From the NCBI GenBank assembly GCA_010015655.1, contig ML976731.1:318804-382803 (forward strand): a DNA stretch of 64,000 bases, given 5' to 3'. The notes under the pieces were generated by a model, which was not told where the DNA came from, did no database searches, and saw nothing but the letters and a program-made list of their open reading frames with translations. The translations under genes were made by a program, and so were the position numbers. Source of the DNA: Bimuria novae-zelandiae CBS 107.79. Taxonomy: Eukaryota; Ascomycota; Dothideomycetes; Pleosporales; Didymosphaeriaceae. Shown piece by piece: positions 15,759 to 64,000 of the stretch; position 1 is the stretch's first letter; each line of letters starts with the position of its first letter.

Positions 15759-15930
15759 TATTATAAAAGATATTTTATTAGAGCTTTTTAGGCTAGCTAG
15801 GGTTAAGCTAAGTAGCTAAGTAGCTAAGCACGCGATTTCTTAAACTTATAAATAGCTAGTTATTATAGAGCTTCTTTTCCTTAATAGACTTTGTTTTCGA
15901 GCTCCCTGATTATTGTGACTGTGTACTACA
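15759..15930 (+). repeat. right LTR of element A
   Basis: 172 bp, starting TATTATAAAAG and ending GTACTACA, followed directly by the ATACT target duplication. Confidence 0.82.
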
Positions 15931-16309
15931 ATACTTTAAAAAGCTACCTAAAGCACCTATTTACTATGCTACTATAGTACTCTAGCTATGCTATAAGATA
16001 TACTATAAGTGTTTATAGCTAAGGTCCATAACTACTGCTACGCGTAGTTTCTGCAACTATAGGCAGCCTATAAGCTTACTAACGCTATAACTATAATACT
16101 AATTATACTACTAAAGCCCTTAATAAGTAGCTTTAATAATATTATTAGTTTTATACTTAACGCTAGCGATCGCGAGTACACTAAAATAATAAAAAATAAG
16201 TATAATTAGAAGATAAAAGGGCTACTATAAATAGCTTAATAATATAAAATAGGTATTATAGCTATATAGTACTAGCTTAGGTTAAACTAAAGTACCTATA
16301 TCTTTTATA

Positions 16310-23218: not shown

Positions 23219-23652
23219 TGTTACGACCACGAACCCCACAAGGATGAAGAAGCCAGACAATTACGCCAAGAGAGTAATTGTTGACGAAGTAGCAGAGTTA
23301 ACGGGACCTAACGGGGCGCGGGGCAGCTTAGTCAGCAGTCACGTGACGAAGTCCCGCATAAAGGGAAGTCCCATGGGACTACAGGGCCTTGGCGGGACTA
23401 CGAAGAAGGAATAGGCTAGTATATAGTGTGGCGACTTTCCTATTGTTGTTTCCTTCCTCGTAGTTAACTTATATATCTTCTGTGCGAGTACGTTCTCCTA
23501 TACAGACTAATAGTTATCTTATTCGTTATAAGATTAGATTGTCTAGCCACGCTAAGTGTCGCATTAACTTGTACCACTGAATAATCCGTGAAGCACCACG
23601 ATACCTTACCACCCTAATCCGGATCGGAACAAGGTGTGAGAGCCTTATAACA
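23219..23652 (+). mobile_element. solo LTR R2, little RIP, inside copia element
   Basis: 434 bp, TGTTACGACC..ATAACA, flanked by a perfect 5-bp duplication TAAAA (23214-23218 and 23653-23657). Near-identical to R1 at 14210-14642 apart from scattered substitutions and one extra G. No internal sequence remains, so it arose by LTR-LTR recombination or is one of a family of solo LTRs. Confidence 0.9.
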
Positions 23653-24509
23653 TAAAAGCGCCCTTTTATTTGCCCTTAATTAGGTGCTGCAGGATTATGT
23701 AGTCTTAGAAGAGTTTTATTATATACTTTTATAAGATAATTATATCCTTACTTCTATATTGCTAGCAGGTTATTACCTATATAGGTGCGACATAGATAAC
23801 TGCCTTTATAAAGTCTTCTTTAACTAAGTCTAGCCTTTAAAGCTCTATAACGTGATTAGTCTCTACTTCTATAGCTACATAATTATACTTAAATGGCTAT
23901 ATAGCCTATAATCTAGCTATTCTTATTAGCTTAAAAGCCTCTTAGTATCGTGCCCTTACTTATTAATATTTATCTTAATAGTTAACCCTAATTATAATTA
24001 TAAAGTTATTAATCTATTACTTTAATATTATTTTAAAAATATAGTAATTATTCTATAGGTACGTAGAGATTATTAATTAGAAAAAGGTAACTACCTTATT
24101 AAGGTCTGCCTTTTCTTCTTAGTAGGCTTAATCTATAATCTTATAGGTCTCGAGCTATCCTTTATAGTAGTTAATATCGTCCTTATATGCTTTCGCACCC
24201 GCTAGTAATAGATATAATAGTAATAGTAGTGCACTATTTAAGTTTATAGTTATATAGACAGCGTTTAGCTAGTAGTTACTTATTAATAAAGGCACCAGTA
24301 TCGCGGGTTTCTACTTTAGTTTATCTATTAGCGCTAGGTTAATAATATTCTAGACTTTTAGAAATTAGCATCTTATTTTAAGCTAATTTAGCTATAGCGT
24401 ATAGTTCGTGTAGTTAGTTAGAATTACTGTAGGATCTCTAAGAGTTAATAAGGCCATAGTAATTAGCTTAGTTAAGGTAGTAATTAATTAAGGCAGTAAG
24501 ACTCTTAAT

Positions 24510-24732
24510 TATTAAATTAAAAGGTAATCATAATAAGATAGAATAATTATTAATTAATCTAAGGTTATTATCTCTTATCTAAGTATTTAAGAGGTAAGAC
24601 GCCTCTATATCCCTTGCTTTATTATAGAATGCAAGGGTGGAAGCCGCCTTAGGCAAGGGCGAAATGCGTCTTTAGTAAGGGTATAAGTGCGCCAGCCACC
24701 TTGCCAAAACAAAGGGACCATGTGATCGGACA
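24510..24732 (-). repeat. 5' LTR of copia element
   Basis: 223 bp, starting TATTAAATT and ending GATCGGACA on the plus strand, followed by ACTTC. Same length and order as 18939-19161. Confidence 0.85.
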
Positions 24733-24737
24733 ACTTC

Positions 24738-24861
24738 TAATATTTCTAGGACGCGTAACTTAATACGTAATTTATAGCTAAGTTAGGAATCTTGGCTTAG
24801 GTGCATAGATAAGTGCCGATACCCTACTACGCATTATATTAGATTGTAACAGATCCTAATA
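24738..24861. repeat. solo LTR X1, right part
   Basis: Continuation of 18629-18938 after the copia insertion; ends CCTAATA and is followed by the ATAGT target duplication. It aligns with the end of X2 across the shared GGACGCGTAA and ATACCCTACT blocks. Confidence 0.75.
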
Positions 24862-24940
24862 ATAGTAAATAATATTAACCTTTACGTTCTATATTACTTA
24901 AAAAAATATAAGTATATTTTAGGCTAATTATCTATTTACC

Positions 24941-25326
24941 TATTAAGTCCCTATGGGGTAGGTAGCCCTAAAGAGACTAAGGCTAGTTCTCAAACGAGAG
25001 TACTATAAGGTAAGAAAAGGTTATTAATGACTTGTACGTATTAATAGAGTTGTTAGTATTAAAGGTAGTGCACGGTTATAAACAAATTAACTAAAGCTAA
25101 AGTATAATTTAAATAATAGATTAATAACTTAGATTAAATACGAGTATAAAAGGGCTATACTTAACGTTCCTATATATATAACTAATTTTATAAATCTTAA
25201 TAGTCTTATGCATCCTAGAGTCTTATATACTAAAATACTTTTAAGATTCTTAATACTTTTAGGACGCGTAATTTATTATGTAACTTATAGCTAAGTTAAA
25301 ATTCTTAGCTAGGCGTATAGATAAGT
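24941..25326. repeat. solo LTR X2, left part (split by element B)
   Basis: Starts TATTAAGTCC and aligns with X1 for its whole length; interrupted at 25326 by element B and resumed at 27258-27303 (ends CTTAATA). Combined 432 bp. Flanks TTACC and TTAGC match at four of five bases, so the target duplication is imperfect. Same orientation as X1, 79 bp away from X1's right end. Confidence 0.72.
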
Positions 25327-27252
25327 TGTGGTGCACAGTCACAACGATCAGGGAGCTCGAAAACAAAGTCTATTAAGGAGAGGAAGCTCTATAATAACTA
25401 GCTATTTATAAGTTTAGAGGATTACGTGCTTAGCTACTTAGCTATTTAGCTTAACCTTAGCTAGCGTAGGAAGCTCTAGTAAGGTACCTTTTATAATACA
25501 CCCTCTAGCTTATAAAGCGTAGTATAATAAGCTAAATAGTAACTTAAAGTATAAAAGGTAGCAAACTTACGCGTAGAGCTTAAAAAGCGTCTAGCTTAAA
25601 TCCTTAGCTTGCTAAGTAATTAGTCTAAGTAGCTAGTTTATATATAGTTCTAGGAGAAAGGTAAAGAAGAAAAGGGAGTAGTATACTTCTACTATAAAGC
25701 TTTAATAAATATTTAAAGATAATTATTTACTTATAACGTAATCCGCGCGAGTACCTACGTAAAAAAGTAAAAAAATAAAAGAAGTAGCGTACTTTTACTA
25801 TAGAGCTTTAATAAACGTTTAAGGATAGCTATTTACTTATAATATAACTTATATAAGTACCTACGTATATAAATATAAAAAATAAGTAGCTATAGGATTA
25901 TAGCGCCTAGCTAGTAAAGGCTTACTTACTTATAGGCTTACTATAATCTATACTTTAATATTCTTTAGAAAGACTAAAGGAGGGTCTACTATCTATCTTT
26001 TATACTTAAGCTTAGTTAATAACACCTTCTACTAATCCTTTTAAATCTAGCTCTTAATTTCACTAATTTCCTTACTTATAAGCTTATTATAAAGCTTATA
26101 AAGAGCTTCTTCCTAGAGCGCGTACTAAAAGTAGTTATACTCTATAGGCTTTTATTAATACTAGCTATTTACTCTATATAGGCACTTATAGCTTATATTA
26201 GGAGTACGCCTTTTAAGCGTAGTATATATGCTTATATACTTAGTTATTTAATTAAGCTACGTAAGCCAGCGAGCGTATCCTTTTAGAGATAGAGTTACTA
26301 CTACGCCTAGTTACGATAGGTTATTAAGCTCTCTCTAAGCCTACTTATAGTTATATTATAGTGCTAAGCGTAGGAAATCCTTTATTAGTAGCGTACCCTT
26401 TATCTTTAAAAAATCTAGGAATATAGCGTTGGCGTGTGCGTGGTTCTATTTAGATAGCTATTTAGTTATATCTGTTATTATTCTACTTTGTAGGCGTAGG
26501 GTAACCTCTTTATATATATATTATACCTACTCTTTCTAATTATTATTTCTTAAATAAAGATTATTCTTAAGTTCTTTAATTAGCGCCTATAGTATCTACT
26601 ACTTACTTAACTATAGTATTACAAGCTCTAGCCTTTCTAAATTAACTATAGTATAAACCTAGTTTTAAAGTACCTAAAGCTTTATTATAAGCTAACTATA
26701 AATAGTAGACTCTAGCTTATAGCGCTTAAGCTATTATATATAGGGCTCGCCCTTAGTATTTATGTCTAGTAGCTCTAGAGCCTAGTCGTGTATATTTATC
26801 TACTTAAAAGCCTTAAAGTTAATATAACTTTATATCCCTTAAGCCTTCGCGTAGTACTTCAGCTACACGTACTAAGGTAGGAATAAGTTATAATCTATAA
26901 ATTAGTTACTTACTAGGAGCTTTATAGTAGTTATTATATAGTTTAGCTTTATTATAGGTCGTAAGCATTAAGACGTAAGCGTAAAAATAATAAAGAGTAA
27001 AAAATAGTTTACTACTATAATTATTAGCTAGTATAAAGTAAGTATATTATAAAGTATTATAAAAGTACTAGGCTTATAACTATAGCGCATAGTTATAACA
27101 ATTAGGGAGCTTAAAAATAAAGTCTATTAAGGAGAGGAAGCTTTATAACAACTAGCTATTTATAGGTTTAGGGAAGCGCGTGCTTGGCTGCTTGGCTACT
27201 TAGCTTAACCCTAGCTAGCGTAGAAAGCTCTAGTAAGGTGCCTTTTGCAATA
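25327..27252 (-). mobile_element. short non-coding LTR retroelement, copy B (inverted relative to A)
   Basis: 1,926 bp with 172-bp LTRs at 25327-25498 and 27081-27252 and target duplication TAAGT (25322-25326, 27253-27257). It aligns along its length to element A read in reverse, lacking only the solo LTR that splits A. No gag or pol recognised. Its ends set the true LTR start (TATTGCAAAAGG) and end. Confidence 0.85.
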
Positions 27253-32520: not shown

Positions 32521-33700
32521 ATGGCGCCCCTAATTTAGGCCCAACTAGCCTCTACTAAGGCTGATATACACCTTACAATCTTAGCTATTAATTAAAACCA
32601 AATTTAGTCTATAAGAGGTGTAGCATATATATTTACTATCCCTTAAATAACGCTCTAACGCCGACGCGCTAGAATTACTACGCGACGCGATTATTAGCCT
32701 AAATTAAAGAAGCTTACTAAGATAGAAGAGGAGGTAATTATTAGTTATATACTTAACCTAGATTTGCGAGGGTTTCCGCCCACGCTAAGTGCTGTGCAAG
32801 ATATGGCGGATAAGCTACTCGCTAAGCGAGGCGCTAAATAGGTTAGCAAGTAGTGGCTGCGTAACTTTATTAAGTAAACAGATTATCTTACTACACGACT
32901 TAATTAACCGTATAATTGGTAGAGAGCTCTATGTAAGGATCTAAATACTATTAGAGCTTAATTCGAGCTTATAGCGCGCATAAAGGATACCTATAACTTT
33001 AACGAGACTAGTTTTATAATAGGCAAGATATCATCTTAGCTTATTATTATAGGCTTAGAGAGACGCGGCAGGCCAAAGGCTATCTAGCCAGGTAATCGTG
33101 GGTAGACTACAGTAATCTATGGAATTAGTGCTACTGGCTGGGCAATCCCGTCCTTTATTATCTTTACTAGCCAGTATTACCTCTCTGCCTAGTACTAGGA
33201 CGATAATATACCGCGCGACTAGGCTTTCGCTGTTAGCAATAATAGCTAGACTACTAATAAGCTTAGAGTAGAGTGGCTAAGGCACTTTATTAAGTATATA
33301 GTAAAGTGTAGGGTAGGCGCGCGCTAGCTACTTATACTTAATAGCTATAAGAGCTATAACTCGCTCGAATTTTAAGAGCTCTACAAGGAGAATAATATCT
33401 ATACTCTTTATATACTACCACATTCGTTGCACCTTTTATAGCCACTTAACGTTAGCTACTTTTCGCCGTTAAAGCGCGCGTACAGCCACTAAATTAAGAG
33501 CCTAATACGCGACTATATTAACTATATTACAAAGCTAGAGTTCTTACCAGCCTTCTACGCAGCCTATAAGTAGTTAATTATAAAGAAAAATATTTACGTA
33601 AGCTTTTAAGGCGTTAGCCTAGTTTTATACGACCTAGAGGCAGTAATATTAAAGCTTAATATTAAGCTTCGTACGCCAACGCCGCCTCTACTAGAGGTTA
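32521..33700 (+). pseudogene. Fot1/pogo-type transposase relic (pogo-4)
   Basis: Starts ATG at 32521 (MAPLI). Readable pieces: a helix-turn-helix entry (IRGVAYIFTIP), LEEEV-like KIEEEVIISYILNLDLRGFP, CENP-B-type DNA-binding segment, then the DDE core with GWAIPSFIIF and LEF.ELYKENNIYTLYILP. All three catalytic Asp sites read Asn: YNFNETSF, LILNSYKSY and PLNVSYF, each one G-to-A change. Numerous TAG codons. Terminal inverted repeats not found; the right side is cut by the TLH1 repeat at 33703. Confidence 0.8.
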
Positions 33701-33702
33701 CC

Positions 33703-35389
33703 CTAACCCAGGGCTGTAACTAGAGTTAGGGCTAAGTCTAGTTTTATAGTTAACTTTATTAGGGATAGAATATCTGCGCTAGGCCAATTCCTGTGCGTAT
33801 ATTTTATCACGTAGGCTAAGTCTAGTAAACACTTACTCGCCGGTCCAGTTAGGTTCCTATAGGCTAATTAACCTAAAATTTAGGCTATAGATTCAGCGCG
33901 TTAAGTTACACGTCCTAGCTAATTTATAGCGCTAGAAACTATATAGTTATAGGTGTTAGGGTTGCGCGTTAGGGTTAGGATAAATATAATAAGGTAGCGA
34001 TTAAACAATAAAGGTAGCTCTAAAATAGAGGCTAATACGTAGCATAAGCAAAGACGCGTTAAGTCGTAAAGAATTTCACGCGTTAAAAAGGCTATACAGT
34101 GTAATAGGGACCTATTATTAGAACCTACCTGTAATAGCGTCGAGCCCGCCATTATGGCGAAAAGTAGTATTACAAGCGAGTATTTTAAACATTTACCTAA
34201 GTATTTATTAGCGATATGCAAAGAATACAGGTACAGGGTTTTACCTAGCCAGGCTAAAAGCCATTTACAGCGTGTCTATAGGCTTAGTAATAAGAAAGCA
34301 TAGCTAGTAGCAAATAAGCTTAGTAGCTGGGCCGGTTTAATATAGTATGCTAGCAAGCTAGAGGTGCCCCATTAGACTATTAAGCCTATTAGCCAGTTGC
34401 TAGTGTATACGGACGGGTTAATATGCCAATTAGATCCAAATTAATGTTATTAGATATTTTAAAGTAAAGAGGTTATAAGAAAGCATTGGTAAAAGGTGCA
34501 TAATTAGTTACTAGTAGGTAGAGGTAGTCGTCCTAGCCGAATAGAGCGAAAGCGCATACAGTTACGCAATAAGCAGGGTTATAAAGCCATCTATTATTAG
34601 AAATTATTCGCCTAAGGCGCCGGTTCGCAGTATTTCGAGGTCTACCAACCTAACTCCACCCCTAAACCCGTAAATGGCGAGGCCAGGTGGGTAAGCGTTA
34701 GTAGGAACATGGACGAGGCGTGGGCCAATATATAAAAGCGGGCTAAAACGACAATCTAGGATAGCGCGCGGGATAAAGTAAATCTATAGCTAGAGTAGAC
34801 TAGGTAGATACTATATTTAGTAGGCATAAAGTGGCCCGAATTATTAGTAAGCGTAAAAGAGCCTAAAGCCAAAGAGGAGCCTATAGCGGCCGCTATATAG
34901 GAGGCTATAAATAGGTTAGCGTAGTTTAGCCAGGCGTCTATTATCTACCGCACGGAGATATTCGTGCGATTAGAAGTAATCTAGATAAAGAAGCACTAAA
35001 CGCGGTTTACGCTATTATAGCCATATATAGATAAAAAGGTAGTTAGTAACCATGCCTAGCTATAGAAGTAGATATTAATATTTTTTTAGTAGACGTAGTA
35101 AGCGCACGCGTAAAAGAGCCCTATATACTAATTTACCTAGTAGTAGCGCGAGGCGTAGGAGGCTTTAGTAAAGGTAGTAGGAGGAGTAGTAGAGGCAAAA
35201 GAGGAAGAAGAAATAGAAGAGATAAGAAATAAAGAGGTAAATAAGGTAATAATAGATAACGTAGATAGTGCGGTGGGGGAAATAAAGGCTAAGTAGGAGG
35301 TAGAGGAGGGTAGAATTATAGGCGAGCGTAAAGCGTTATTAAGTATTAAGAAATTATGTTTAGCGTTTTATATCGCATTATTAAGCCAG
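33703..35389 (+). mobile_element. telomere-linked-helicase repeat, copy TLH1, truncated
   Basis: Begins CTAACCCAGGGCTG, as TLH2 (56177) and TLH3 (58942) do, here within TACCCTAACCC. It carries about 450 bp of leader and the first 412 codons of the TLH protein, then stops matching the other copies at 35389 (after TTAAGCCAG). Alignment to the others shows mostly transitions. Confidence 0.75.
34154..35389 (+). pseudogene. TLH protein N-terminal fragment with zinc-finger motifs
   Basis: ATG at 34154 gives MAKSSITSEYFKHLPKYLLA. Two zinc-finger-like pieces: ICKEYRY..SHLQRVYRL (a second Cys apparently changed to Tyr) and CQLDPN..C with KHW.KVHN (C-x6-C and H-x4-H), as in the DUF3505-type N-termini of fungal TLH genes (family knowledge). 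Then QYFEVYQPNSTPKPVNGEAR, NMDEA and an acidic Glu-rich region near 35200. Several RIP-type TAG/TAA codons. No helicase part remains. Confidence 0.65.
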
Positions 35390-37254
35390 ATAAAGACCGA
35401 AACCGCGTATAAGGTTAGAGAATTTTCGGTAATAAAATTTTTATTTTTATACACTAAAATGTAGAGCGTGCGCGTGCGAATCGAACGTACTCTTTTAAAT
35501 TTTTATTGGGGTTGTGGTTGTAGAGTTATTCGCGCTGAAAGTGGTGTGGTTATATAGTACAGGTCCGGATTTAGTAAGGCGCGGCAAGCGAGGCGCTAAG
35601 CTAAAAAGAGTTATTAACCTAATTTGCTAATAATAATAGTAACAACGCAGACAGCTAATAAAAACGCTAGAAAAAGGTATTAGTTTAAGCTAAGAGATAT
35701 ATAGATTAAATACACTATATAAATTCTTAACTTAAGTTATAGTTTTAGGGTTATTTGTGTTTGGGTTGTGCAATAGGAGACGCTAGGCCAAAAAGAGTTA
35801 TTAACCTAATTTGCTAAGCTATCGCTCCCTAGTCTCTAATATAACGCGTCTGCACTCTGCAACGTAGAGTTTATAGCTTTAAGTATACTAGGAGAAAGGC
35901 TAAAGAAGTATTCCACAATTAACGCTTAGGCTAAGGTAAAGCGAACGCGTAAACACGAAGAGTATATACGCAGAAAGAACTATTCTTTTTAACTAGTAGC
36001 TTACCTTAACTTTATTTACTACGAGCCTACACTTCTAGGCGCTCTAATCACCACCTACCTAGACCTTAGTGTTTAAATTAGTAACGATATTCTTATTCCT
36101 TATAACCCTCTTATCTAGCTAGACAAGTTACTAGAAGGCGAGGATAAATATAGACTAGCATCTCCTCTTACGTCGCAAACAATAGACAACAAAAAGGCCG
36201 CGATAATTATTAATTAACTTAGAGTAAATAATAGGGAATAGACAAACGAGCGTATTAAGTACGAATAACGTATACTATAATAAATAAGCGATAGCGATAT
36301 AAGGGCTACTAGTATTTTACTTATAATATAGGCTGGGACTGCGCAAGTAGGTGCAAGCACAGATATAACTTTAGCTATAAAGGAACCCCCTATTATAAAG
36401 ACTCGTAGTGTTAGTAATAGATTAATACTAATTCTAGCAAGAGCTACAAGCGCTTCTTAAGAGGCTTTAGATACGCTACGAAACTAGCGCAGCGTCTCTT
36501 TAGCTTAGTTAAGTAGTTAACGTAAGACCTTTCTAGCCTAGAGTAATATACTATTGTCTTGGGTTAAACGTGTATCTAGATAAGCGTTCGAGAGTAGGAA
36601 CGCGCCGTAGCTAGCGTAGTTAACTCCTAGCTATAGCACGGCTCTACTGCCACCCTGGCTATTTAATTATAGTATACCTTGGCTACTATAGCCGTCTAGT
36701 AGTAGTAGTACGCCTTAGGTAGTCGCGTAAGGAATACTAGCTGCTACGTTACCCTCCCCCTTTACGCGCCCTAGTAACGTGCCGAGTCTAGTTATTAGCT
36801 AAGTAGTATTACTAGGGCAATTAATACCTAGGGTAGGTAGTCTATACACGCCGCCCACGGAGTAAATCGCGTATAAACTCGCTAAGTAACTACGGAACTT
36901 CTAAGGCTATACGCACGAGGAGTATACAAAGGGGAACTAACTTTACTAAAAATATTACTAGCGCCCTAATATACACTCTATATACTTATTATTTAAGGAA
37001 ATTACGCGCCTACTTCGTGGGGTGCATAATGGGGGAACGCGTCTACTAGATATCTTTAATAATTCTTAGCTAATAAAGCCCTTTACTTTACCTAAAGGCC
37101 TAGATTTAAAGGCTGCGTTTAAGGGCACAAGTCCCATAGCTTTCCCTAAGGATATTGGTACGGCGGACAAGAAGCTACCCCGTAATCTATGCCTATAGCA
37201 GCACTATAATAGCAGTAGAAAAAGACGAGCTACTAAGGTTAGGTTTAATATAGA
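35390..37254. other. RIP-decayed DNA, possible 5' part of the following long ORF
   Basis: Holds the 37-bp repeat pair, then from about 35870 broken plus-strand reading in more than one frame. No domain recognised. Confidence 0.4.
35594..35817. repeat. 37-bp direct repeat pair
   Basis: 35594-35630 and 35781-35817 both read CGCTARGC..AAAAAGAGTT then ATTAACCTAATTTGCTAA, differing at two or three positions. They enclose 150 bp. They could be subterminal repeats of the element that follows, or a duplication scar. Confidence 0.7.
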
Positions 37255-39989
37255 TAGTGTCTACTACTTTCCTAGTAGCCTAGGGTTTACTCGAAACGGG
37301 ATTGACTGGCACCCTCGGGCGTATCTAATTCTAAACCTAGACACTAATATACACTTTAGTCTAATAGTGTCTGTGTATAATAGTTAAGGCGACCTAGCGA
37401 TAAGAAACCTATTACTATATAAGATTCCTTACTATTGCTTTAGTTTAGTTGCAGGTAGTATAAAGTTACTACTAATCTTTATCTTCTTCCTAGAGCTCCA
37501 CCTTAAAAGCCAGTATAAGCATAGTACCTACGTAAGTAAGTAGGATTAGTAGCTCTGGCTAGACGCGGTGCTACTCTTGGCCATAGGTAAGATAGTAAAT
37601 AATTTAACCCTAGCGTCGTACCTTCCCGCGTTTAAGGACACTATTAGCAGGGACGTTACTATAGTATTAGTAAAGACGTTAAAGTAAAAAGAAAGCGCGC
37701 GAAAGCAGCTCTTAGAGTATAGGCTATAGCATAAGTACCTTAATCTACTATAGATAGCTATCCTCGAGCGGATCGCCAAGAACGCTAGGTTAGATTAGTT
37801 TAATAACGCTACCCTATTTATGCACGCGAAGAACACCAAGCTAGCGTATATAAGGAATAAGCTAATGGCTGCGTACGGGCGATAGGAGGATGCCTGGGCA
37901 GAGGCTACTTACCCATAGTTTTATAGCCAAGACAGGACCTTTATAGATATTACTAAGACGATTACATCGGAGGACTACGCTTACCCGTATAACGCCATTC
38001 TAGACAAGTTTAAGGCAGAGACGTATCTCTAAAAGTAATACTACCTAGAGTTGTATACTCGCACGCGCGTAAAGCTACTAGATAATAATAAGCGGGCAAG
38101 AGGGAGTCCTCGCGTAATAACCTACTCGTGGGCCACGATAAGAGACTTAATAGGCCAAACGCTATCGAGCGTGCCGCGTAGCTAGGAGAATATAGAGGGG
38201 TTAGTGTATTTATAGTTTTACGCTAATGTTAAAACGCCCTTTAATAATTCTAAGGTGTACGTGTTTAATAACTAGGCGGTGGAAAATCTAGCGCTGGATC
38301 CTGGCTATATTCGCTCGCTATAGTAGCAGGGTAGGGGCGCGACCTTCTTAGAGAAGGTCTACTAAGGTGCCTACCTATATAGTAAGGGTCGTGCATTCTT
38401 TAGCCTTAGAGACAACTAGAGGAAGTTATACAGGATCTAGAAGGAGCATTAAGTCTTTCTTACTATAATAGACGAGATCTGCGAGTAATGGGGCAAGTGG
38501 GATTTCTACAATAATAGTATTAACAACGCTAACTAGTTACTTCCTTACTATATTATCCCCTTACTAGAGCTATTCAGCTTTCTCCACGCCTAGATTAATA
38601 AGTATTATTTTCTATTTAAGCACACGCTCGCGCATACCGCTAGAACCTACTTACTACCTAAGACTATAGTTATGGTAGTCGCACTATAAGCGCTCCGGTT
38701 CTGCTATAGTAGTAATATACTAGCGAGAGAGTTAGTGCTATATAAAGATCGCTGGGAGCAGAGGCGTGGGCAAGATATTATTATAAAAAAGGGCCTTAGC
38801 ATGCAGGAAACGATAGATAAGTGTAGCCTAGGCTAGTTCCTGCCTAAGTTTAGCTAGATAACCAGGCGGTTGGTTCCGCCGCATGATAATAATATACTTA
38901 TTAGGAACGTGCTAATATATGCCGAGTATAAGCGCAGGTAGCGAGTAGTTAAGGACCTATAGGACGTGTTTATCTAGTTTAACTAAGTAACAGAATAGTT
39001 CTAGTAGCACTACGTCCTACAGCACCCTTAGCTACTTTAAACCTAACTAGAGTATCTACACGTCCTTTCCCTAGAGCAGTTTAACGCTAATATTTAGGTA
39101 GTTATACTCGCCGCGCATAAGAGCTATTTAGAGCTATTAAGCGCTACGCTAAGGCAGGACGGCAACGCGGCGTTCTACTATAAAGAAATAAAACACATGT
39201 TCCTAAATAAAGGTGTAGCTAGGCTATTACACATAGTTACGGGTAATAAAATACGCTTCTTAGTTATTAGTAAGCTACTAGAATTTCTCTTCCTCTGGGA
39301 CGACGAGCTGGAGCGGGCAGGATAGGGAGTAAAGCCCTTTTATTTAATTCTATAAAAGAGCTTTAAGTTTATAGAGAGCCAGCTAGGCCAGTAGCGCGTA
39401 AACAGGTGGCTGGACAAGTTCTTTTACCTGGTCCGCCTAACGCATTGGATCCTGCCCTACCTATCTAATAAGTTATTTAATTATGTCTATAAAAGAAAGC
39501 CGCACGCAAGGCTTATAGGGGTAAATAATATAGTTTTTAGCTATCTTTACGGACCCTAGCATGGTCTGATTACTATTTAATAAACCACCCAGGATAGTCT
39601 ATAGTCTCGTCTACCAAGCGCACTAACACTCGGGCTAAACGGATACGCACAAGCGGGCCTAGGAGATAATAACGCTTATAAAGGCGTGCAGAGGGCGAGG
39701 ACTACGCATATAGAGTATAAATAAGACAGTAAAGCACTAGATCGCTAGGCGGACAAGCGCAGGCGCTAAGGGGTTCCTACCTATATAAGAGTAAGGGATG
39801 CCTCCTACACTATTAATACAAGAGAGAATTAAAGGCTTAAGTTTAAATAAGCTAAATAGGTTAATAGTAGCGCTTGCGCAGGAGCGAGGCGCTACAATTA
39901 GAAAAGAAGAGATAGGCCTAGAGGCTACTCTCGCCATAGCTATTATACCTTTAGAGAGGTCGGCGCGTGTTACCCAAAGTTCTAAATAG
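37255..39989 (+). pseudogene. long decayed ORF, family not recognised
   Basis: One plus frame is readable over more than 2.4 kb despite many TAG codons: SVYYFPSSLGFTRNGIDWHP, AIRNLLLYKIPYYCF, ATLFMHAKNTKLAYI, DRTFIDITKTITSEDYA, YVFNN.AVENLALDPGYIRS, HTLAHTARTYLLPKTIVM, LYKDRWEQRRGQDIIIKKG, LHIVTGNKIRFLVISK. The last stretch (39798-39989) is open for 63 codons in another frame, ending VTQSSK. The original protein would exceed 900 residues. It is likely a transposon-borne or repeated subtelomeric protein because it is RIP-mutated, but I recognise no DDE, RT or helicase motif. Confidence 0.55.
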
Positions 39990-42900
39990 GTAAGGAAGGA
40001 GCGGAGCGAAAGCGGTAGTGTATTTATACTATCTATAAATAGGAATTAAATTAGTCTTATAGGGTAGGAAGGGAATACGCTGTTGGCCAAATACGCACGT
40101 AGTATTAAGGGGGTTAGGTAGGTAGGTAGAGAGCAAGTACTTTTGGTAGGGTACTTAGCTATCTACCTAGTACTCTACTAAAGCGTACCTCTTGTGAACA
40201 CGTGACTAGGATAAGGAGTTAGTAGGTCTTAATTACTTTCTTAACCTAGTACGAATAGATGGCTAGAATACTAGTGTGCAAGATAGTATGCTTATGTCTT
40301 TAGGAATAGGTACTATATATTAGTTATTATAAATAAAGATAAATTAAGGTTAGGGCTTGCGCCTATAGCCACGGCACATAACTTTTTATTTAAGGATAAA
40401 TTAGCTTTACCTCTCCGCGCAGTCTAGTATAGTAATATCCTATAATAGTAGTAAATTGGCCTTACCTTTCTTTAGGGCTTCTTTTCGTATTCTGCAAACC
40501 GCTTCCCTTCTCGCTAAGGATTATCCCACTTCCTACCTGCAGTTAAGCCGTGGCTAGAATTTATTTCACCTACCTCGACTAAACGCCCGCTGTTAAGTAG
40601 CATTTAAACGCGAAACTTAGACACGGATTAGCATAAGCGCATACGCCTTTACTTATAAACGCGTGCTATTAAATCTTAGGCGTTTTTTATGGCCTATTAG
40701 AATAATAAAGTGAGCCACCAATATAGTAGGACGTCTAGTCACTGTGCCGCCGAGGTCTAGATCCAACGGGGATTTTACTTACAGGCCTTCTAAGAACTCC
40801 CTCTATATAATTATTAACCCTCTAACTCTGTATTTGGCGCCGCGTTGGTCAGCAGTGGATTTAGAATTAAGGTAAAGCAAAGCTAGAACTTAAACTACGT
40901 CCTTAAATAACTTCTTATTAGATATTTACTTTACAAACGCCTATGTGCTAATAGAATTAAGAACGAATACCTGTTTGGGCATCCCAGGAAAGTTTCTTAG
41001 GCATAAAAGTAGCTATCTTATCCTCGTAAAGGCAAGAATCTTTCTTTAGCTTGGCTAAAACATGCGTAAAGTATTGTTCTCCACTTTGCTAATAATATAA
41101 ACTAACTTTACATCTATAGGATTAGCAGTTACTAGTATTTTAATACGCCTAACCGCTTCTATCTTTACTCCACGTACATAATAGAGCACGGCGGCGACAT
41201 GTTCGGATACCCGTGCATAATCTATAATAGACGCGGCGGTATCCTGCCTAGCAGGCCCGCCTTAAAGGCTGTAAGCTCACACTCCAGCGATAGCTCTAGG
41301 AGTAAATTAAGCTTTTTTAAACGTGAGCCATAAAAGCTCTAAGCAACTAGCGCTTAACGTTTAGACTACTAGTCCGCCTATTAATAGTGTTATTTGCTAA
41401 AGCGCCTTGCGTAGCTATAGGTTACCCTAAGGTAGTTAACGCAGGCATGTATAGTGCACGTGTAGATAGGGAAGGGATGCCTAACGTGTATAGCAACCTT
41501 ATTAATAAGCTAAAGCGACACGGTACGCTGGGATAAGGTTATCTAAGAGCCTTTAAGCTCTAATTAGCGTGCCGATTAAGAGCTTATTCCTAGCTTAATA
41601 CAAAAGCTACAACACGATCCTTAATAGATTTCTTAAATTAGGGACACAGTCTTCCCTTGTTCGAAACCTACCTTAAGGTATCAAGAGTGGCCTGAATAAG
41701 GAAACCAAGGAGTGTTAACTTTAGAATCCACAAGGGTAAGCGTGATAAGGAGACACTAATGCGTAAGAGGCTAAATTAGTAGGATAAGGCCCTACTAATA
41801 CCTTAGAAGGTATTAGTAATAATTAGTAGTACGTAGGCAAGTCTTCCGTGCGCGTAGAACTACTTCTAAATCCTAATAATATAGATAAGTCTATTTCTAA
41901 AGCGGTATATATACATCTAGCCCGAATATACCCGTCCTTTCTTTTTATAGCAAGAAGAGTATGTTGGCAGTTATATAAAGCAAGAGCGGTATATAATTAT
42001 GCAAAACGTATTTACCTATTTTAGCCACCATGTTTCTTATAGATAAATACTATTTCTAGGGCAAGAGGCCAGAGGCACACATCTTTTGCCCCGAAATTTA
42101 TATTAGAAGTAAACAAATTGCAATAGGCAATACTATCTATATACTATCTAAAAAGCTAGCGACGAGTTTGGGTTAGACATTCTTATAGTAAGGTGTATCT
42201 AATTGTAGCTGCGCAATCTTAACAGCACCTTATTAAATAATAATAATAAAGGACGCCCCTTATAATTTAGAAAGGCAGAGAGACCTATCTTACTTATTAT
42301 TATTTTTTTTACGATAGCGTCTAGCATAGATAGAGCGTCCTGGCTAGTATCCCGGAAAAATTAGGACACTTGGCCTGAAAGTGGAATCTGTTTGGGGGCC
42401 ATGTACTACTCGGGGAAAGATGGGACGTGGGAAAGATAGGAACTTAACCAGGAAAATGCCTACGTGGCTAATGCCCTAGTAAGTCCGGTGGCTATATATT
42501 ACGTTTAAACGTATTACTATCCAACGTGGTAGAGAAATATTAGCGTAGGCTAATGGCCTAACAGCGTAGCTATTATAGTAATATTATTCAGGAGGGGGCA
42601 TACCTAGCACTTAGGAATAGCTAAGGAGGCATAAGCGGCACGCTAGTAGTTAGGTGTAGTAGTAAGACTATCGCATAGCATAAGTAGTCTTGATAGGGCG
42701 TTTAATATTTCGAGGAGAATGCAACATGTACATGTATAAATAGGCTCTATTAACCCTACCACTCTTTATTTACGTGGAAAACGTAACAAACCTCTTTATT
42801 TACCTATAAGGCGCTTTTATTTTATGCTGCAGGTTTCTCCCTAATCTAGGACCTTATTATCTAACTATACTTAGGCGGATCCTAGGGTGCCAGCAACCCC

Positions 42901-56176: not shown

Positions 56177-58941
56177 CTAACCCAGGGCTGCAACTGGAGT
56201 TAGGGCTAAGTCTAGTTTTATAGTTAACTTTGTTAGGGATAGAATATCCGCGCTAGGCTAATTCCTGTGCGTATATTTTATTACGTAGGCTAAGTCTAGT
56301 AAACACTTACTCGCCGGTCTAGTTAGGTTCCCATAGGCTAATTAACCTAAAATTTGGGCTATAGATTTAGCGCGTTAAGTTACACGTCCTAGCTAATTTA
56401 TAGCGCTAGAAACTATATAGTTATAGATATTAGGGTTGCGCGTTAGGGCTAGGATAAATATAATAAGGTGGCGATTAGACACTAGAGGCGACTCTAAAAT
56501 AGAGGCCAACATGTAGCACAAGTAAAGACGCGTTAAGTCGTAAAGAATTCCACGCGTTAAAAAGGCTATATAGTGTAATAGGGACCTATTATTAGGACCT
56601 ACTCGTAATAGCGTCGAGCCCGCCATTATGGCAAAAAGTAGTATTATAAGCGAGTATTTTAAATATTTACCCGAGCATTTATTAGCGATATGTAAAGAAT
56701 ATAGGTACGGGGTTTTACCTAGCCAGGCTAGAAGCTATTTATAGCGTGTTTATAGGCTTAGTAGTAAGAAAGCACAGCTGGTAGCAGATAAGCTTAGTAG
56801 TTAGGCCGGTTTAATATAGTATACCGGCAAGCTAGAGGCGCCCTATTAGACTATTAAGCCTATTAGCCAGTTACTAGTGTATACGGACGGGTTAATGTGC
56901 CAATTAAATCCATATTAATATTACTAGATATTTTAAAGTAAAGAGGTTATAAGGAAGCATTAGTAAAAGGTGCATAATTAGTTACTAGTAGGTAAAGGTA
57001 GTTATCCTAGTTAAATAAAGTAAAAGCGCATATAGTTACGCAATAAGCAGGATTACAAAGCTATTTATTACTAGAGATTATTTACCCAAGGCGCTGGTTC
57101 GCAGTATTTCGAGGTCTACTAACCTAACTCTACCCCCGAACCCGTGGACGGCGAGGCCGGGTGGGTAAGCGTTAGTAGAAATATAAATAAGGCGTGGGCT
57201 AACGTATAAAAGCGGGCTAGGATAATAATTTAGGATAGCGCGCGGGATAAAGTAAATTTATGGCTAAAGTAGACTAAGTAGATACTATATTTAGTAGGTA
57301 TAAAGTAGCCTAAATTATTAGCCAGCGTAAAAGAGCCCAAAGCTAAAAAGAAGTCTATAGCGGCCGCCATATAGGAGGCTATAGATAGGTTAGCGTAGTT
57401 TAGTTAGGTATTCGTTATCCACCGCACGAGGATATTCGTGCGATTAAAAGTAATCTAGATAAAGAAGCACTAAACGCGGTTTACGCTATTATAGCTACAT
57501 ATAAATAAGAAGGTAGTTAGTAACCATGCCTAACTATAAAAGTAAATATTAATATTTTTTTAGCGGACGCAGCAAGCGCACGCGTGGAAGAGCCCTATAT
57601 ACTAGTTTACCTAGTAATAGCGCGAGGCGTGGGAGGCTTTGCTAAAGGCGGTAGGAGGAGTAGTAGAGGCGAAAGAAAAGGAAGAGATAGAAGAGATAAA
57701 AAATAAAGAGGTAAATAAGGTAATAATAGATAACGTAAACAGTGTAGTGGGGGAAATAGAGGCTAAGTAAGAGGTAGAAGAGGGTAGAATTATAGGCAAG
57801 CACAAAGCGTTATTAAGTATTAAGAAATTATATTTAGCGTTTTACATTATATTATTAAGCTAGTCTATTACCTATAAAGAGTACGATAGCCCGTTAGTGT
57901 GTGTATTAGCCATATTAGGGGTAAAGAAGGATAGGTAGAAGGGCGCCAAATAGTACCTGCCTATTTTATTAGCTATTATTAAGGTTACCTAGTTTATAGT
58001 AGTGTAGTAGGCGTTAGAATTATTAGATATATTTATAAGAGACGATATAGACAGCGATAGCGCGTACGAGAGTAATAGGGATAGTACCTAGTAATAGGGC
58101 CAACTAAAAGGGTATTTATAGTAGATCTAGTAGATAATAGACAGGTTTATAGTGCGCGATAGCCACAGCCCCATGTAGTGGATATTAGATTTACGGACGT
58201 ACGGGCTAAAGATCTATTATAATACGACGTTACGTAGCCATGTAGAGTGGGTAGAGCAGGACGAGTTATTATATAAGGAGCTATAGTTTACTATAACCTA
58301 GTTCCGCAGCATGGTGCACGGGTTAAGGGAGGAGAGTTAATAATTATTAATAGAGAATTTATTATTTACTAATAGCCTGTTCGCCGAGCCTGTCCCTAGC
58401 ATCCCATAGGAGAGTTTACGCGATAATCTAACTAATAAGTAACTAGGGTAGAATTTTTTAAAAAACTAGCGCACCCGCATGCCCGTGGATAAAAAGTAGT
58501 AGTTATATAAGTAGGTTAATTAGGACGCCTAGATTAGGGACTAGTTTATAAAGCTAGGCACTCGTTCGGGCGTTAACCCGTAAGAGGTTAGGCGGTATAT
58601 AGACTAGGTAGTTATATTTAGGGAGAAGTTAATTGCGTTAATATATATTATAGGCGAATAGCCAGCCAAAGGACCCGAGATTATAAGTATTTGGCATAGT
58701 AACATAGTTAAAGGGGGCTATTATAATATATCTATTAAGGACGGTAAGGTAGTGTTTATAATAAGATACTATAAAGGGTATGCTATTAGTAGTAACGTTA
58801 AGATTATTTACCGGTATTTACCACGCGAGGTAGGTAAGTTAGTAGTATATTATATATGGCTAGTGTTGCTGTTCTAGCAGCGGATAGAGGCGATAGTGTA
58901 AAAAAAGAAGGTAATTTTATTATATATATAATTAGTCGACT
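56177..58941 (+). mobile_element. telomere-linked-helicase repeat, copy TLH2, 3'-truncated
   Basis: Begins CTAACCCAGGGCTG and aligns with TLH3 up to a GTCGACTCTAAC / AGCCAACCCTAAC point, where TLH3 starts. It therefore keeps the leader and about 770 codons but lacks the helicase. The junction with TLH3 is head-to-tail at a shared CTAAC. Confidence 0.75.
56628..58941 (+). pseudogene. TLH protein fragment: zinc fingers and part of the recombinase-like domain
   Basis: ATG at 56628. Same order as TLH1 and TLH3: zinc-finger motifs, Glu-rich acidic region near 57680, then the central domain. The Arg of the recombinase-like box I (PARGPEI in TLH3) is Lys here (codon AAA at 58668), a G-to-A change. 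It ends before the second Arg/His/Tyr boxes. Many RIP-type stops. Confidence 0.65.
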
Positions 58942-61359
58942 CTAACCCAGGGCTGCATGAACATGTAGCCCTACATATTAATAGGACCCTGGTTTTATTA
59001 GGGATAGAATATCCGCGCTAGGCCAATTCTTCTATGTATATCTAAGAACGTAGCCCGTATATTAAAGATAGTTAACCCCACATGTCGATAGGTTCCTGTA
59101 GTCCAATTAACCTAAAATTTTAGTAATAGATTTAGCACACTAAGTTACACGTCCCAGCTAATTTACAGCACTAAATAATATGTGGTTATAGGCATTAGGG
59201 TTGCGCGTTAGGGTTAGGGTAAACATGATAAGGCGGCGATTAGACACTAAAGGCAGCTCCGAAATAGAGACTAACGCGTAGTATAAGTAAAGACGCGTTA
59301 AGTCGTAAAGAATTCCACGCGTTAAAAAGGCTATATAGTGCGATAGGGACCTATTATTAGAACCCACTCGTAGCAGCGTTAAGCCTGCTATTATAGTAAA
59401 GAGTAGCATCGTAAGCAAGTATTTTAAATATTTACCTAAGTATTTATTAGCGATATGTAAAAAGTGCAGGTACAGGGTTTAGCCTAGCTAGGCAAGTAAC
59501 TATTTATAATAGATTTATTAGGGTGTTAGGCGCACGCGAGCGTAGTTAGTAGTAGATAAGTTTAGTAGCTAGGCTAGTTTACTCTAGTATGCTGGCGAGC
59601 TAGAGGTGCCTAGTTAGAGTATTAAACCTATTAGCTAGTTACTAGTATACATAGACGGATTAATGTGCCAATTAGCCCTAGGCTAGTATTACTAGATTAT
59701 TTAAAGTTTCCGCGTTATAAAGAACCATTAGCGCCATGTTTATAGTTAGTCACTAGTAGGTAGAGGTAGCTATCCACGTTAATTAGAGAAGCAAAGCATA
59801 TAGTTACGTAATAATTAGGGTTAGAGGCGCGTCTATTACTAACGATTATTAGCCTAGGGCGCCGGTTCGCAGTATTTTAAGGTCCACTAACCCGAACCCA
59901 CCCCCGAACCCGTGGACGGCGAGGCCAGGTAGGTAAGCGTTGGCAGGAACATAGACGAGGCGTAGGCCAACGTGTAAAAGTAGGCTAAGACAATAATTTA
60001 AAACGGCGCGCGAGACGAGGTGAATCCGTAATTAGAGTAGACTAGGTAGATACTATATTTAGTAGGTATAGAGTAGCCTAAATTATTAGTAAGCGTAGAA
60101 GAGCCTAAAGCTAAAGAGGAGCCCGTGGCAGCCACTATATAGGAGGCTATAAATAAGTTAGCGTAGTTTAGCTAGGCGTCTATTATCCACTGCACGGGGA
60201 TATTCGTGCGATTAGAAGTAATCTAGACAAAGAAGCACTAGACGTGGTTTACGCTATTATAGTCGTATATAGACAAGAAGGCGGTTAGTGACTATGCCTA
60301 GTCGTGGAAGTAAATATTAATATTTTTTTAGCAAACGCAGCAAGCGCACGCGTAGAAGAGCCCCACGTACTAGTTTACCCAGTGGTAGCGTAAGGCGTGG
60401 GAGGCGTTAGTAAAGGCGGTAGGAGGAGTGGCAAAGGAGGAAGAGGAGGAAGAGAAGGAAGAAACAAAAGAGATAGAAAATAGAGACGATAGTGTAGATA
60501 AGGTAATAATAGATAACGCAGATAGTGCGGTGGGAGAGATAAAGGCCAAGCAGGAGGCAGAGGAGGCTAGAATTATAGGCAAGCGCAAAGCGTTATTAAG
60601 TATTAAGAAATCGTGTTTGGCGTTTTGCATTGCATTGTTAAGCTAGTCTATTACCCGTAAAGAGTACGATAGCCCGTTAGTATGTGTATTAGTTATATTA
60701 GGGGTAAAGGAGGACAGGTAGAAGGGCGCCAAATAGTACCCGCCTATTTTATTAGCCGTTATTAAGGTTACCTAGTTTATAGTAGTATAGTAGGCGTTAG
60801 AATTATTAGATGCATTCGCAGGAGACGACATGGATAGCGATAGCGTATATAAGAGTAATAAGAATAGCACCCAGCGACGGGGCCGGCTAAAAGGGTGTTT
60901 ATAGTAGGTCTAGCAGATAATAGACAGGTTTATAGTACGCGACAGCCATAGCCCCATGCAGTGGATATTGGATTTACGGACGTACAGGCTAAAGATCCAT
61001 TACAACACAACGTTACGCGCCCATGTAGAGTGGGTAGGGCAGGACAAGCTATTATACAAGGAGCTATAGTTTATTATGGCCTAGTTCTATAGCATGGTGC
61101 ACGGGTTAAGGGAGGAGAGTTAGTAGTTATTAATAAAGGATTTATTATTTAGCAACGGCCTGTTCGCTAAGCCCGTCCCTAGCATCCCGTAAGAGAGTTT
61201 ACGTAATAATCTAACTAATAAGTAATTAGGGTAGAATTTTTTAAAAGACTAGCGCACCCGCATGCCCGTAGACGAGGAGTAGTAGTTATATAAGTAGGTT
61301 GGCCAGGATGCCCGAATTAGGGACTAGTTTATAAAACTAGGCACCTATTCGGGCGTTAA

Positions 61360-61990
61360 CTAGTAAGAGGTTAGGCGGTATATAGACTAGGTAGTTACAT
61401 TTAGAGAGAAGTTAATCGCGTTAATGTATATCACGAGCGGGTAGCCAGCTAGAGGGCCCGAGATTATAAGTATCTGGCATAGCAACACAGTTAAAGGGGG
61501 CCACTATAATATATTTATTAAGGACGGTAAGGTGGTGTTTATAACGAGATACTATAAAGGGTATGCTATTAGTAGTAACGTTAAGATTATTTACTAGTAT
61601 TTACCGCGCGAGGTGGGCGAGTTAGTAGTGTATTATATATGGCTGGTGTTGCTGTTCTAGTAGCGGATGGAGGCAATAGTGTAGAAGAAGGAGGCGATTT
61701 CGTTACACATATGGTCAGCCAACCCTAACAGGCGCAAGTAGACGACAGACTAGTTATAAGAGGTGTTAAAACGCGAGACTAGCGTTAGATTAGGCTAGCT
61801 ATTAATAATTACCACGTACCGTAAGATTACTATTAGTATTAGTTAACGGTTTTTGCGCGGGTCCGTGGCGTTTTAGCCAAAAGAAGGAGACAAAAGTAAG
61901 GTATAAAATAAAGAGAACACGAAAGCGTTAGTAGTAAATTTATAGGCCAGGCACATAGCGCATATGGCGGGTATAGTATACGCACGAGGT
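61360..61990 (+). other. tyrosine-recombinase-like domain within TLH3
   Basis: Box I Arg in PARGPEIISIWHSN (AGA 61451-61453), a beta-hairpin-like stretch KVVFITRYYKGYAI, an Arg in TTYRKITI (CGT 61820-61822; the usual His of H-x-x-R is absent), a His in ARHIAHMAGIVYARG (CAC 61952-61954), and a Tyr exactly nine residues later (TAC 61979-61981), the spacing seen in XerD-type enzymes. Assignment is by motif pattern and spacing only, so it is an inference. Confidence 0.5.
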
Positions 61991-62239
61991 ATTATAGAGT
62001 AGGCTAGGGTAATAGTAGATAGGTAATAGTAGTTTTAGATATTAAGCACGAATTAGTATTAATTTTTAGGGTTTCTACTAAATAGTAGCGAGGAGGATAG
62101 GTGCAAGAAGCGAAAGAGGGCGCCGTTTAAGAGTAAGGTAGACAAGGCCAGAATGGATTAGTAGGGAAGGTTAAGAAAGATAGACACCGCCAAGTAGTTA
62201 TAGAGGATAGCAGGTAAGACGGTAACATTTTAAAGCGTG

Positions 62240-63150
62240 TAGCGAGAGGTAATTAATGCCATTGTAGGTAGAGAGAGCCCCGTGGTGGCAGTAATACTAA
62301 TAAGGGCAGGCAAGAGCATGTTATTTATATTACTAGCGTAGGCTAAGTAGGGCGGCATAACCATTATTATTATCCCGTTAATTATATTACAAGGCAATAT
62401 AATGCGATAGTGTAAAAAGCTAGGGATATTATGTGTAGCGTGGGAGAGCCGGCGCCTACCTAACGCAGTCGCGATAGTATTAGTAATACCTAAGTTGGCT
62501 GTTACGCAGGGGTTTACTACATTTATAAACTATTTAAGAGTAACACGGTAGTTAGACTAGATTATAATTAACGAGTGCTATATTATATTAAATTAGCGGT
62601 ATATATTCCGTAAGCAAATGTAGTAGTTAGGCAAGTTAGTAGCCGCGAAGACGTAGATAGTGTTATTAATAGTAACGTTGCCGCCTAGTAAAGAGAATAA
62701 GTTATTCTAATAGATGTATTTTAATACTAACTAGGTTAAGGTGTTCTGAGTAGAGACGGCGCGGACAAACGTGGCATACTAGGTAATTAAGGTAGGGAGG
62801 GCAGCAAAGAAGCAAGAGGTAGAGGGAATAATATTAGGCGTAGTGTAGTAGAAGTTACGTAAGTATAGGCAAGGCAAGGTAGTAATATATAATAATTTAG
62901 TGCGTAAGATTAAGGCGTTAGCGTAGTAGTTAGGGTACTATGCGTATTATTACGACGCCGTTAGTAAGGTAAGCATGTTAGAAGATTTTATATTAGGTAG
63001 TAAGCGGGTTATTATAGCTATAAGCGCGTTAGGAATAGGCATTAATATTCCTAATATCTAGTGCATCGTCCACATTAATTAGCCGTTTTTTATGTTAGAT
63101 TACGCGCAGGAGAGCGGCCAGGCAGGACAAGATAGGGCATAGAGTAAGGT
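62240..63150 (+). other. RecQ-type helicase domain within TLH3
   Basis: Motif I AGKSMLF, motif Ia-like TIIIIPLI, motif II as NECYI (DECH-like ancestor), motif III-like LIVTLPPS, motif V GIGINIPNI, motif VI QESGQAGQD. Order and spacing fit a superfamily 2 RecQ helicase. Substitutions at Asp and His of motif II are single transitions. Confidence 0.75.
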
Positions 63151-64000
63151 GGTTATAATCGTGCAGGAAGGGGCACAGCAAGCGGCCAAAGATAAGTAGG
63201 AGGAGAAGGAGCATGCATTAGTGCAAGCGTTGGTAAGAGAAGGCGAGACAGCGACGTGCAGGCGGGTAGTGTTGGGCGGGTATTTAGATTATAAAGAAGT
63301 AGAGCGGGTAGGGTGCAAAGAGGGGGAAGAGAAATGCGATATTTATAAAGGAGGCAAAGAGACGGAAGAGGAGGAGAGCGAGAAGGGTAGTAATAGGGAC
63401 AGTAGTAATAGAGAAGAGATAAACGTGGTCGAAGCAAAAAGGAAGAGGGATAAGGAGACTAAGAGGAAAGTAGTATAGCATGTGTTCTAATAGTAGGAGT
63501 AGACACGACGGGGTCTATAATAGAGGTTTATACAGGACTAGTAAAAGGCGTACGCTAGCATGGAATAGTTATGTAGTTAGTTAGCGTAGTAGGTAAATTA
63601 GTGCGGGATATATAAGGGTGCGGGCAACAAATAGAGCGTATATAATATTTAGTAATATTAGCAAGTAAAGAGCTAGTAGGCAAAGGAGCTAATTAAGAAA
63701 ATAAAGTAGTAAATCTAGTACGAGCTATATTTAGGTTATTTTTAGTGTAGGGTGCCGCAGGAGATGTGCTATTAATAAGAGGAGAATAGATAAGGGCGTT
63801 ATTAGTAGGCAGTAGGCGGCGAATACTAGTATTATAGCGTTTTAGTAGGTGGATTAATAGGGATCGTGTATGGCAGCGAGGATTCCGTTAGAAACCGTTA
63901 GGTTAATAGATTATTGCGTAAGAGGGTTGATAGATCGTTAATAGATAAGTTGGTTCAATATTTAGGGACAAAGCAGGCATTTAATTCGGTAGAGAGTAAC

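Follow-up and report, generated by a model that had tools for sequence, protein, structure and literature searches.

Telomere-linked helicase (TLH) genes have long been known at the chromosome ends of fungi. They are described as helicases, an OrsD domain is reported for the UTASb relatives of Ustilago, and for Fusarium oxysporum and Mycosphaerella graminicola the TLH reading frames are given as about 3.5 kb (PMC12857005, PMC10532341, PMC4522978). The accessible text of these three papers offers no mechanism by which such genes would spread from end to end, and it mentions neither a recombinase domain, nor a fixed left end, nor a target reading C-pyrimidine (C-Y). We analyzed a 64,000-nucleotide stretch of Bimuria novae-zelandiae CBS 107.79 (C76:318804-382803, referred to as the window) from a genome of 77.4 Mb in 191 contigs. 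The window carries a repeat that resembles the TLH genes in being subtelomeric, multicopy, RecQ-like and often truncated, and that encodes an OrsD zinc finger, a tyrosine-recombinase-like domain and a RecQ-type helicase in one protein.

Among fungal DNA elements, Cryptons and Starship captains (DUF3435) rely on a tyrosine recombinase. The repeat differs from them in having one fixed end and copies that mostly face contig ends, and neither PF11917 (captain) nor PF00589 (phage integrase) matched in the proteins scanned. Terminal attachment, arrays and one fixed plus one eroded end are hallmarks of telomere-attaching retroelements such as HeT-A of Drosophila. The same features, together with a telomere-like repeat at the attaching end, are described for Terminons, the Athena Penelope-like elements (PLEs) of rotifers (accessible text of PMC6431247). 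The repeat studied here shares these characters with Athena/Terminon PLEs, MoTeR, FoTeR and HeT-A. In contrast to them, its fixed end lies upstream of the gene, its targets read C-Y and no reverse transcriptase was found in a Pfam scan of the proteins P0002, P0150 and P0149.

We propose, with a probability of roughly 0.6, that the repeat is a mobile unit resident at chromosome ends, the recombinase-helicase of which joins the left end of its own unit to C-Y sites while the distal DNA is lost. With its fixed left end, its short target rule and a recombinase-type active site, the repeat makes the question of how these genes spread decidable. No description of a recombinase domain in TLH proteins was found in the open-access literature searched, including the accessible parts of PMC6431247, PMC10532341, PMC12857005, PMC7367193 and PMC4522978, and PMC9594970 contained no relevant term; because the comparison covers open papers only, the novelty of the domain is provisional.

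The middle domain of the TLH protein

The gene at 59393-64000 is a copy, mutated by repeat-induced point mutation (RIP), of a fungal protein made up of OrsD, an unannotated middle domain and a RecQ-type helicase. A preliminary description, made from the letters alone, had read 59393-63478 as one frame. A single plus-strand frame of 1362 codons does run throughout this interval, but it is no open reading frame, with 116 in-frame stops (96 TAG, 19 TAA and 1 TGA), and 63478 is not its true end because other copies align on to 64000. The longest stop-to-stop stretch at 57000-64000 measures 106 amino acids, and both stretches of at least 100 amino acids lie on the minus strand. Homologues have a majority residue at 92 of the 116 stop columns, which is Q, R or W in 90 of these 92; the other 24 columns are mixed. 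The RIP indices of the unit were 1.83 (TpA/ApT) and 0.55 ((CpA+TpG)/(ApC+GpT)), those of the GC-rich stretch at window 1-9000 were 0.72 and 1.1. The residues found at the stop columns and the dinucleotide indices together identify the decay pattern as RIP.

A zinc-finger N-terminus and helicase motifs had also been recognized in the frame, and Pfam bears out both by matching OrsD and Helicase_C (Table 1). The DEAD match in the decayed copy stayed under its cut-off (E 0.19). A read-through query with X at the stops matched 217 proteins among 8000 scored candidates, and 120 of these are listed. Open homologues, many of them about 1550 amino acids long, come from metagenomes, Alternaria, Pyrenophora, Plenodomus, Didymella and Histoplasma, and one is named by its source telomere-linked helicase 1 of Pyrenophora tritici-repentis. 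Most carry both DEAD and Helicase_C according to Pfam, which marks them as RecQ-type superfamily 2 (SF2) helicases, and often OrsD, with a stretch lacking any annotated domain between. A second search with 14 distant members found at least 103 proteins, extending to Orbilia at 21% identity and to three others with 27-31%. A single short relative of the middle domain (size range 119-380 amino acids) was seen among the 8000 scored candidates, a protein of 130 amino acids. On viral contigs (25 loci), on the best 80 of 429 bacterial and archaeal contigs and on 20 of 457 plasmid records, the best segments fell in or near the helicase part, and none started before query residue 856.

The two arginines, the histidine and the tyrosine that the preliminary description had placed at 61451, 61820, 61952 and 61979 all lie in frame. 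Counted over the rows with a residue in an alignment of the 120 listed homologues, they are kept almost without exception (Table 1), and they are also kept in full-length relatives at 21-31% identity. An invariant lysine at 61556 comes in addition to these four. The residues are embedded in the neighbourhoods GGQPARGPEI, YHKG...K..HRYLP, AYREIAI and QAGHTxHVAGxxYAR, and mean column conservation was 0.777 in the recombinase-like part (residues 680-885) and 0.74 in the helicase (930-1260). In an alignment of 38 proteins (30 new and 8 known), all five residues were kept in the divergent full-length proteins P0141, P0142, P0149 and P0150. Partial or rearranged proteins in the same set lack the Lys region (P0144), parts of box II (P0140, P0145) or most of the middle domain (P0143 and P0146-P0148). 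Six fragments with 16-27% identity to the first of them make up alignment A5, which has 12 invariant columns, Y10, R34, N45, R51, Y66, K68, P84, P100, R154, Q186, H189 and Y198; five of them make up the R/K/R/H/Y catalytic set, the six relatives having been picked for divergence from members already seen with that set.

We compared profiles of the domain with those of lambda Int, Cre, XerC, XerD, FimB, FimE, IntS, IntA, IntR, IntE and IntD, eleven bacterial and phage templates that are not independent because they represent one alignment with different lead sequences. The alignment of the P0150-led profile spans the catalytic domain and brings box I Arg, the Lys, the GH and the Tyr into register with XerD. 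Using match columns only, column shuffles (200 per template) attained the score 0 times for FimB, once for XerC, 3 times for XerD and 22 times for lambda Int, and for none of the four did any shuffle attain the aligned length; this trimming was applied alike to real and shuffled query profiles and raised the real scores over those of the earlier comparison. A search of the Bimuria genome with PF00589 gave no match.

Several results weigh against a recombinase assignment. Nothing beyond chance-level matches to unrelated proteins emerged when the middle domain was scanned against Pfam and when profiles A1 and A5 were searched against PDB sequences. The first profile-profile comparisons were weak (P 0.14; second round P 0.06-0.6), the box II Arg is left unplaced in the XerD alignment, and as single-sequence templates the 11 recombinases were not ranked above 18 unrelated proteins (p 0.24). 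Furthermore, the His of the HxxR motif is not conserved, position -3 being A in 67, Q in 39, P in 7 and H in 2 of 118 rows. Within the tyrosine recombinase superfamily this His varies. Since sequence searches are silent and single templates do not discriminate, the main basis of the recombinase claim is the set of invariant residues with its spacing. In the order and kind of these residues (R..K..R..H-x8-Y), the Tyr nine positions after the His and the GH context, the domain is like XerC/D, lambda Int, Cre and FimB/E; it differs from them in the HxxR His, in escaping recognition by Pfam and PDB sequence searches and in its fusion to OrsD and RecQ. The earlier notion of a tyrosine-recombinase-like domain thus stands as far as the conserved R, R, H and Y are concerned, whereas Pfam and PDB searches place the domain in no recombinase family. 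To us the middle domain looks like one of the tyrosine-recombinase type, with a complete catalytic set beside the helicase that has been kept over deep divergence.

Two features of the homologues lie outside this domain. A cysteine-rich conserved C-terminus follows the helicase in the window (63540-64000) and in homologues, reading CGIC...FSGCFWCGVPQDIC...CQYHG in P0002, and has no Pfam match. In P0148 of Talaromyces marneffei (named Transposon Tf2-6 polyprotein), 1 of 103 relatives, an OrsD-containing N-terminal part is joined to a reverse transcriptase.

The left end of the unit and its targets

The repeat unit starts at 58942, upstream of the gene, and the window contains three copies, two of them truncated (Table 1). 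At the tandem loci examined the downstream unit begins at the equivalent of 58942, with CTAACCCAGGGCTGC or a sequence close to it; the point at which the upstream unit is cut differs. Allowing up to one mismatch, the 15-mer CTAACCCAGGGCTGC matched the genome 132 times and its backward control once. The 13-mer AACCCAGGGCTGC has 72 exact places in the genome, all preceded by CT and identical to the 72 places of the 15-mer, so the CT of the target is not an artefact of the search pattern. None of the listed one-mismatch places deviates within the first five bases. We collected 80 stretches around listed places (100 of the 132) as well as the three starts in the window, which yielded 96 occurrences; the identity of their first 15 bases is partly by construction, as these formed the search pattern. 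TTAGGG at positions 57-62 is kept in 99% of 87 aligned starts, namely those without a further start inside, one chance match (L140) included. In copies on C7, C20, C42 and C62, OrsD follows 478 bases after the left end, indicating that left end and gene travel together. A fixed left end of the repeat, the same to the base, is well supported by these sequence comparisons. A divergent left end in reverse orientation was seen at C76:313902-313916, about 69 kb from the contig end and facing inwards.

Inside the left end, ahead of the TTAGGG, lies a palindrome that varies between types (AACATGTAG/CTACATGTT, AACTGGA/TCCAGTT and AAATGTTA/TAACATTT). Among six representatives of two types, 4 of 9 pairs of the inner stem have changed on both sides and 90.7% of cells are paired. 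The covariation score of the whole structure was reached by 1 of 500 shuffles, and slid structures scored lower. The outer CTAACCC/GTTAGGG stem draws its support mainly from one type. Integron attC sites are structured hairpins read by a tyrosine recombinase, to which the left-end hairpin may be likened by way of analogy only.

To call targets, an uninterrupted copy of the target was compared and the alignment was required to reach the last base. This resolved 71 of the 96 occurrences to 29 distinct sites, of which 28 start with C-T or C-C; C-Y accounts for 5.5% of positions in the reference unit. At 21 tabulated TLH sites with counts and at 63884 (reference only), the reference has a purine in third position, compared with a C-Y-R background of 4.1%; at the sites CTTACT, CTTTCC and CTTTAA the third base is T. 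Site 61724 alone is common to 18 of the 96 occurrences. Four targets are non-TLH: one is a dispersed repeat, one a second subtelomeric element, one lies within or next to captain genes, and one is a repeat of the window. For the dispersed repeat, with 641 candidates at a first look through the genome, the empty copies read /CTTTAAG or /CTTTAGG in 5 of 5 cases (the slash marks the junction). The idea that these repeats are mobile, already put forward in the preliminary description, gains support from the fixed left end, the C-Y at 28 of 29 distinct targets and the four non-TLH targets.

Other observations on the left end and its targets count against this idea. At several sites some of the copies start with T instead of C, and the exception among the 29 sites (L101) reads TA and lies one base off another used site. 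For 25 of the 96 occurrences, including the starts at 56177 and 58942 and the chance match L140, no target was resolved; the start at 58942 was assigned to the 61724 site with one base unaligned. Palindromes are not enriched at targets (p 0.18). In the left-end stem, the number of pairs changed on both sides was reached by 114 of 500 shuffles and the number of pair types by 311 of 500. The folding z-scores of four left ends were -3.45, 0.13, -1.81 and -0.81, the type at 0.13 folding no better than shuffled sequences and that at -0.81 weakly; this spread indicates that one type has a strong hairpin, whereas in others it is weak or has decayed.

The junctions also bear on two other explanations. 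The repeat might be passive subtelomeric DNA, comparable to the Y' elements of yeast, that spreads by homologous recombination or break-induced copying, with the recombinase-like residues serving another role or being a fossil. Tandem arrays, truncation and end-facing orientation are indeed usual at subtelomeres, and the 18 junctions at site 61724 are perhaps partly copies of one event. However, the 29 distinct sites all meet the left end at an identical base, in some cases within unrelated sequence where homology cannot place the junction, and the active-site residues are invariant at 16-27% identity. We therefore regard passive spread as unlikely. Alternatively, the left end might be a telomere product, CTAACCC representing an inverted telomere repeat and broken ends having been joined to telomere-capped fragments by microhomology or fusion. 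The telomere-like CTAACCC at the very start, the TTAGGG 57 bases further in and the four tips with telomere repeat directly on cut units (see below) would fit such an origin. Yet fusion predicts variable repeat numbers, while the starts share one sequence followed by a palindrome that has changed with its pairing kept, and a microhomology of 1-3 bases gives no reason to expect C at 28 of 29 sites, which leaves an origin from telomeres distinctly improbable.

The second subtelomeric element starts at about AAGGTAAAAAGTAGGGTTAAGG and was found at C62:412705-416415 (L007, L015) and on C161 (L165). Upstream of it stands either telomere-like TTAGGG or a TLH unit that is cut at 62400, and it seems to have been the target of a TLH unit itself (L072).

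Chromosome tips and the proposed route of spread

Of 97 copies on contigs of known size (there are three more copies without), 93 point to the nearer contig end; the remaining four are on contigs of at most 81 kb. We examined 27 contig tips, two of the fetched ones (C50 and C1) consisting of N. At four of the 27 (C174, C34, C44 and C4) TTAGGG arrays sit directly on the unit, which is cut at a different point in each. In its subtelomeric position and its orientation towards the telomere the repeat matches the telomere-linked helicases. On the 3' side of the gene, units run through AT-rich DNA, after which an interior copy on C161 reads TTAGGGTTAGGGTTA. We found no right-hand junction with the target; for the first unit of the window, 33001-40000 was compared with three empty copies. 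In the cases looked at, the distal target DNA was not met again.

Reciprocal exchange was considered as a mechanism and is not favoured, as 0 of 4 5'-truncated TLH pieces begin at a C-Y site; the sample comprised five stretches, the fifth of which is not truncated, and used BLAST alignment starts of pieces beginning within the query. Small as the sample is, the lack of reciprocal products leans toward one-way attachment or copying over simple end exchange.

A further point against an active element is that the matched part contains stops in all 100 genome copies scored (of 162 candidates), which leaves past activity or activity in trans for this genome. The broken copies are what one would expect if units were moved in trans by another enzyme, such as a Starship-captain recombinase or a telomeric retroelement, and if the recombinase-like domain only bound or resolved DNA. 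Captain-type genes are present in the genome (102 DUF3435 matches), the flank of one unit matches captain loci, and P0148 joins OrsD to a reverse transcriptase. On the other hand, the protein of the unit keeps a complete active-site set of its own, left end and gene travel together, and P0002, P0150 and P0149 contain no reverse transcriptase. We consequently assign movement by a foreign enzyme a small share of the probability.

In our preferred explanation, a unit acting through its own protein, each unit would consist of the left end (CTAACCCAGGG...) with its palindrome, one gene and then telomeric repeat. The single protein, combining an OrsD zinc finger, a catalytic domain of the tyrosine-recombinase type and a RecQ helicase, would recognize the left end. 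The helicase may open or extrude the left-end palindrome, or may help to copy the donor, and the Arg-Lys-Arg-His-Tyr site would cut the left end and attach it at C-Y in the vicinity of another chromosome end. The new terminal unit would bring or regain a telomere and the old tip would be lost, and joining of this kind could rescue broken ends. Later erosion, TTAGGG addition and further joinings would then produce nested arrays, and RIP would inactivate the duplicated copies. That the joining is catalysed by this protein is what we infer.

We give even odds to the wider proposal that the units form a separate class of DNA mobile element on chromosome ends, in which a zinc finger-tyrosine recombinase-RecQ protein attaches a structured left end at C-Y, replaces the tip, drives the spread of this TLH family and could back up telomere repair. 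Should the protein carry out the joining, it would match the telomere-attaching retroelements on the DNA side and represent a recombinase family new to the Pfam copy used. Under the wider proposal, this TLH family would owe its spread to transposition at chromosome ends driven by a recombinase and not to passive recombination.

Features of the window and its surroundings

The end of the window is the end of the contig, because C76 measures 382,803 bases. The features of the repeat units are collected in Table 1.

Table 1. Coordinates, in window positions, of the repeat units, the decayed gene and its candidate catalytic residues.
Feature	Position	Strand	Basis
Dispersed repeat, target of the first unit; empty site seen in uninterrupted copies elsewhere	33002..33702	+	
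First unit, truncated; joined to the dispersed non-TLH repeat at /CTTTAAG	33703..35389	+	Uninterrupted copies of the repeat
Second unit; 3' part removed where the third unit starts, target equivalent to 61724/CTAAC	56177..58941	+	
Unit left end CTAACCCAGGG...TTAGGG with inner palindrome (AACATGTAG-CC-CTACATGTT type; window copy CTACATATT)	58942..59003	+	Units start here
RIP-decayed gene (OrsD - recombinase-like - RecQ helicase - Cys-rich C-terminus)	59393..64000	+	Runs off the contig end
OrsD zinc-finger domain	59420..59740	+	PF12013, residues 10-115, E 2.8e-8
Tyrosine-recombinase-like catalytic domain, limits approximate, no Pfam family	61310..62092	+	Residue conservation
Box I Arg (PARGPEI), residue 687	61451..61453	+	R in 118/118 homologues
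Lys of YHKG turn, residue 722, proposed beta2-beta3 Lys	61556..61558	+	K722 conservation 1.0
Box II Arg (YRE-A-I), residue 810	61820..61822	+	R in 118/118 homologues
Box II His, residue 854 (RH in window copy, GH in homologues)	61952..61954	+	H in 118/119
Candidate nucleophilic Tyr, residue 863, nine after the His	61979..61981	+	Y in 119/119
RecQ-type helicase region	62180..63172	+	Helicase_C PF00271, residues 1156-1245, E 2.6e-7

The 102 DUF3435 matches of the genome, for example C164:41226-42552 and C38:82088-83414, include many with stops and some that are open, and they form a family separate from TLH. In window 1-10500 the GC content falls from about 0.55 to 0.3 near 10.5 kb, and the GC-rich part holds an open reading frame for a PDZ/trypsin-like protease together with fragments of a fungal transcription factor and a cytochrome P450. 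Long inverted repeats, 80-98% complementary, occupy 13568-15931 and 23214-27252 in AT-rich DNA.

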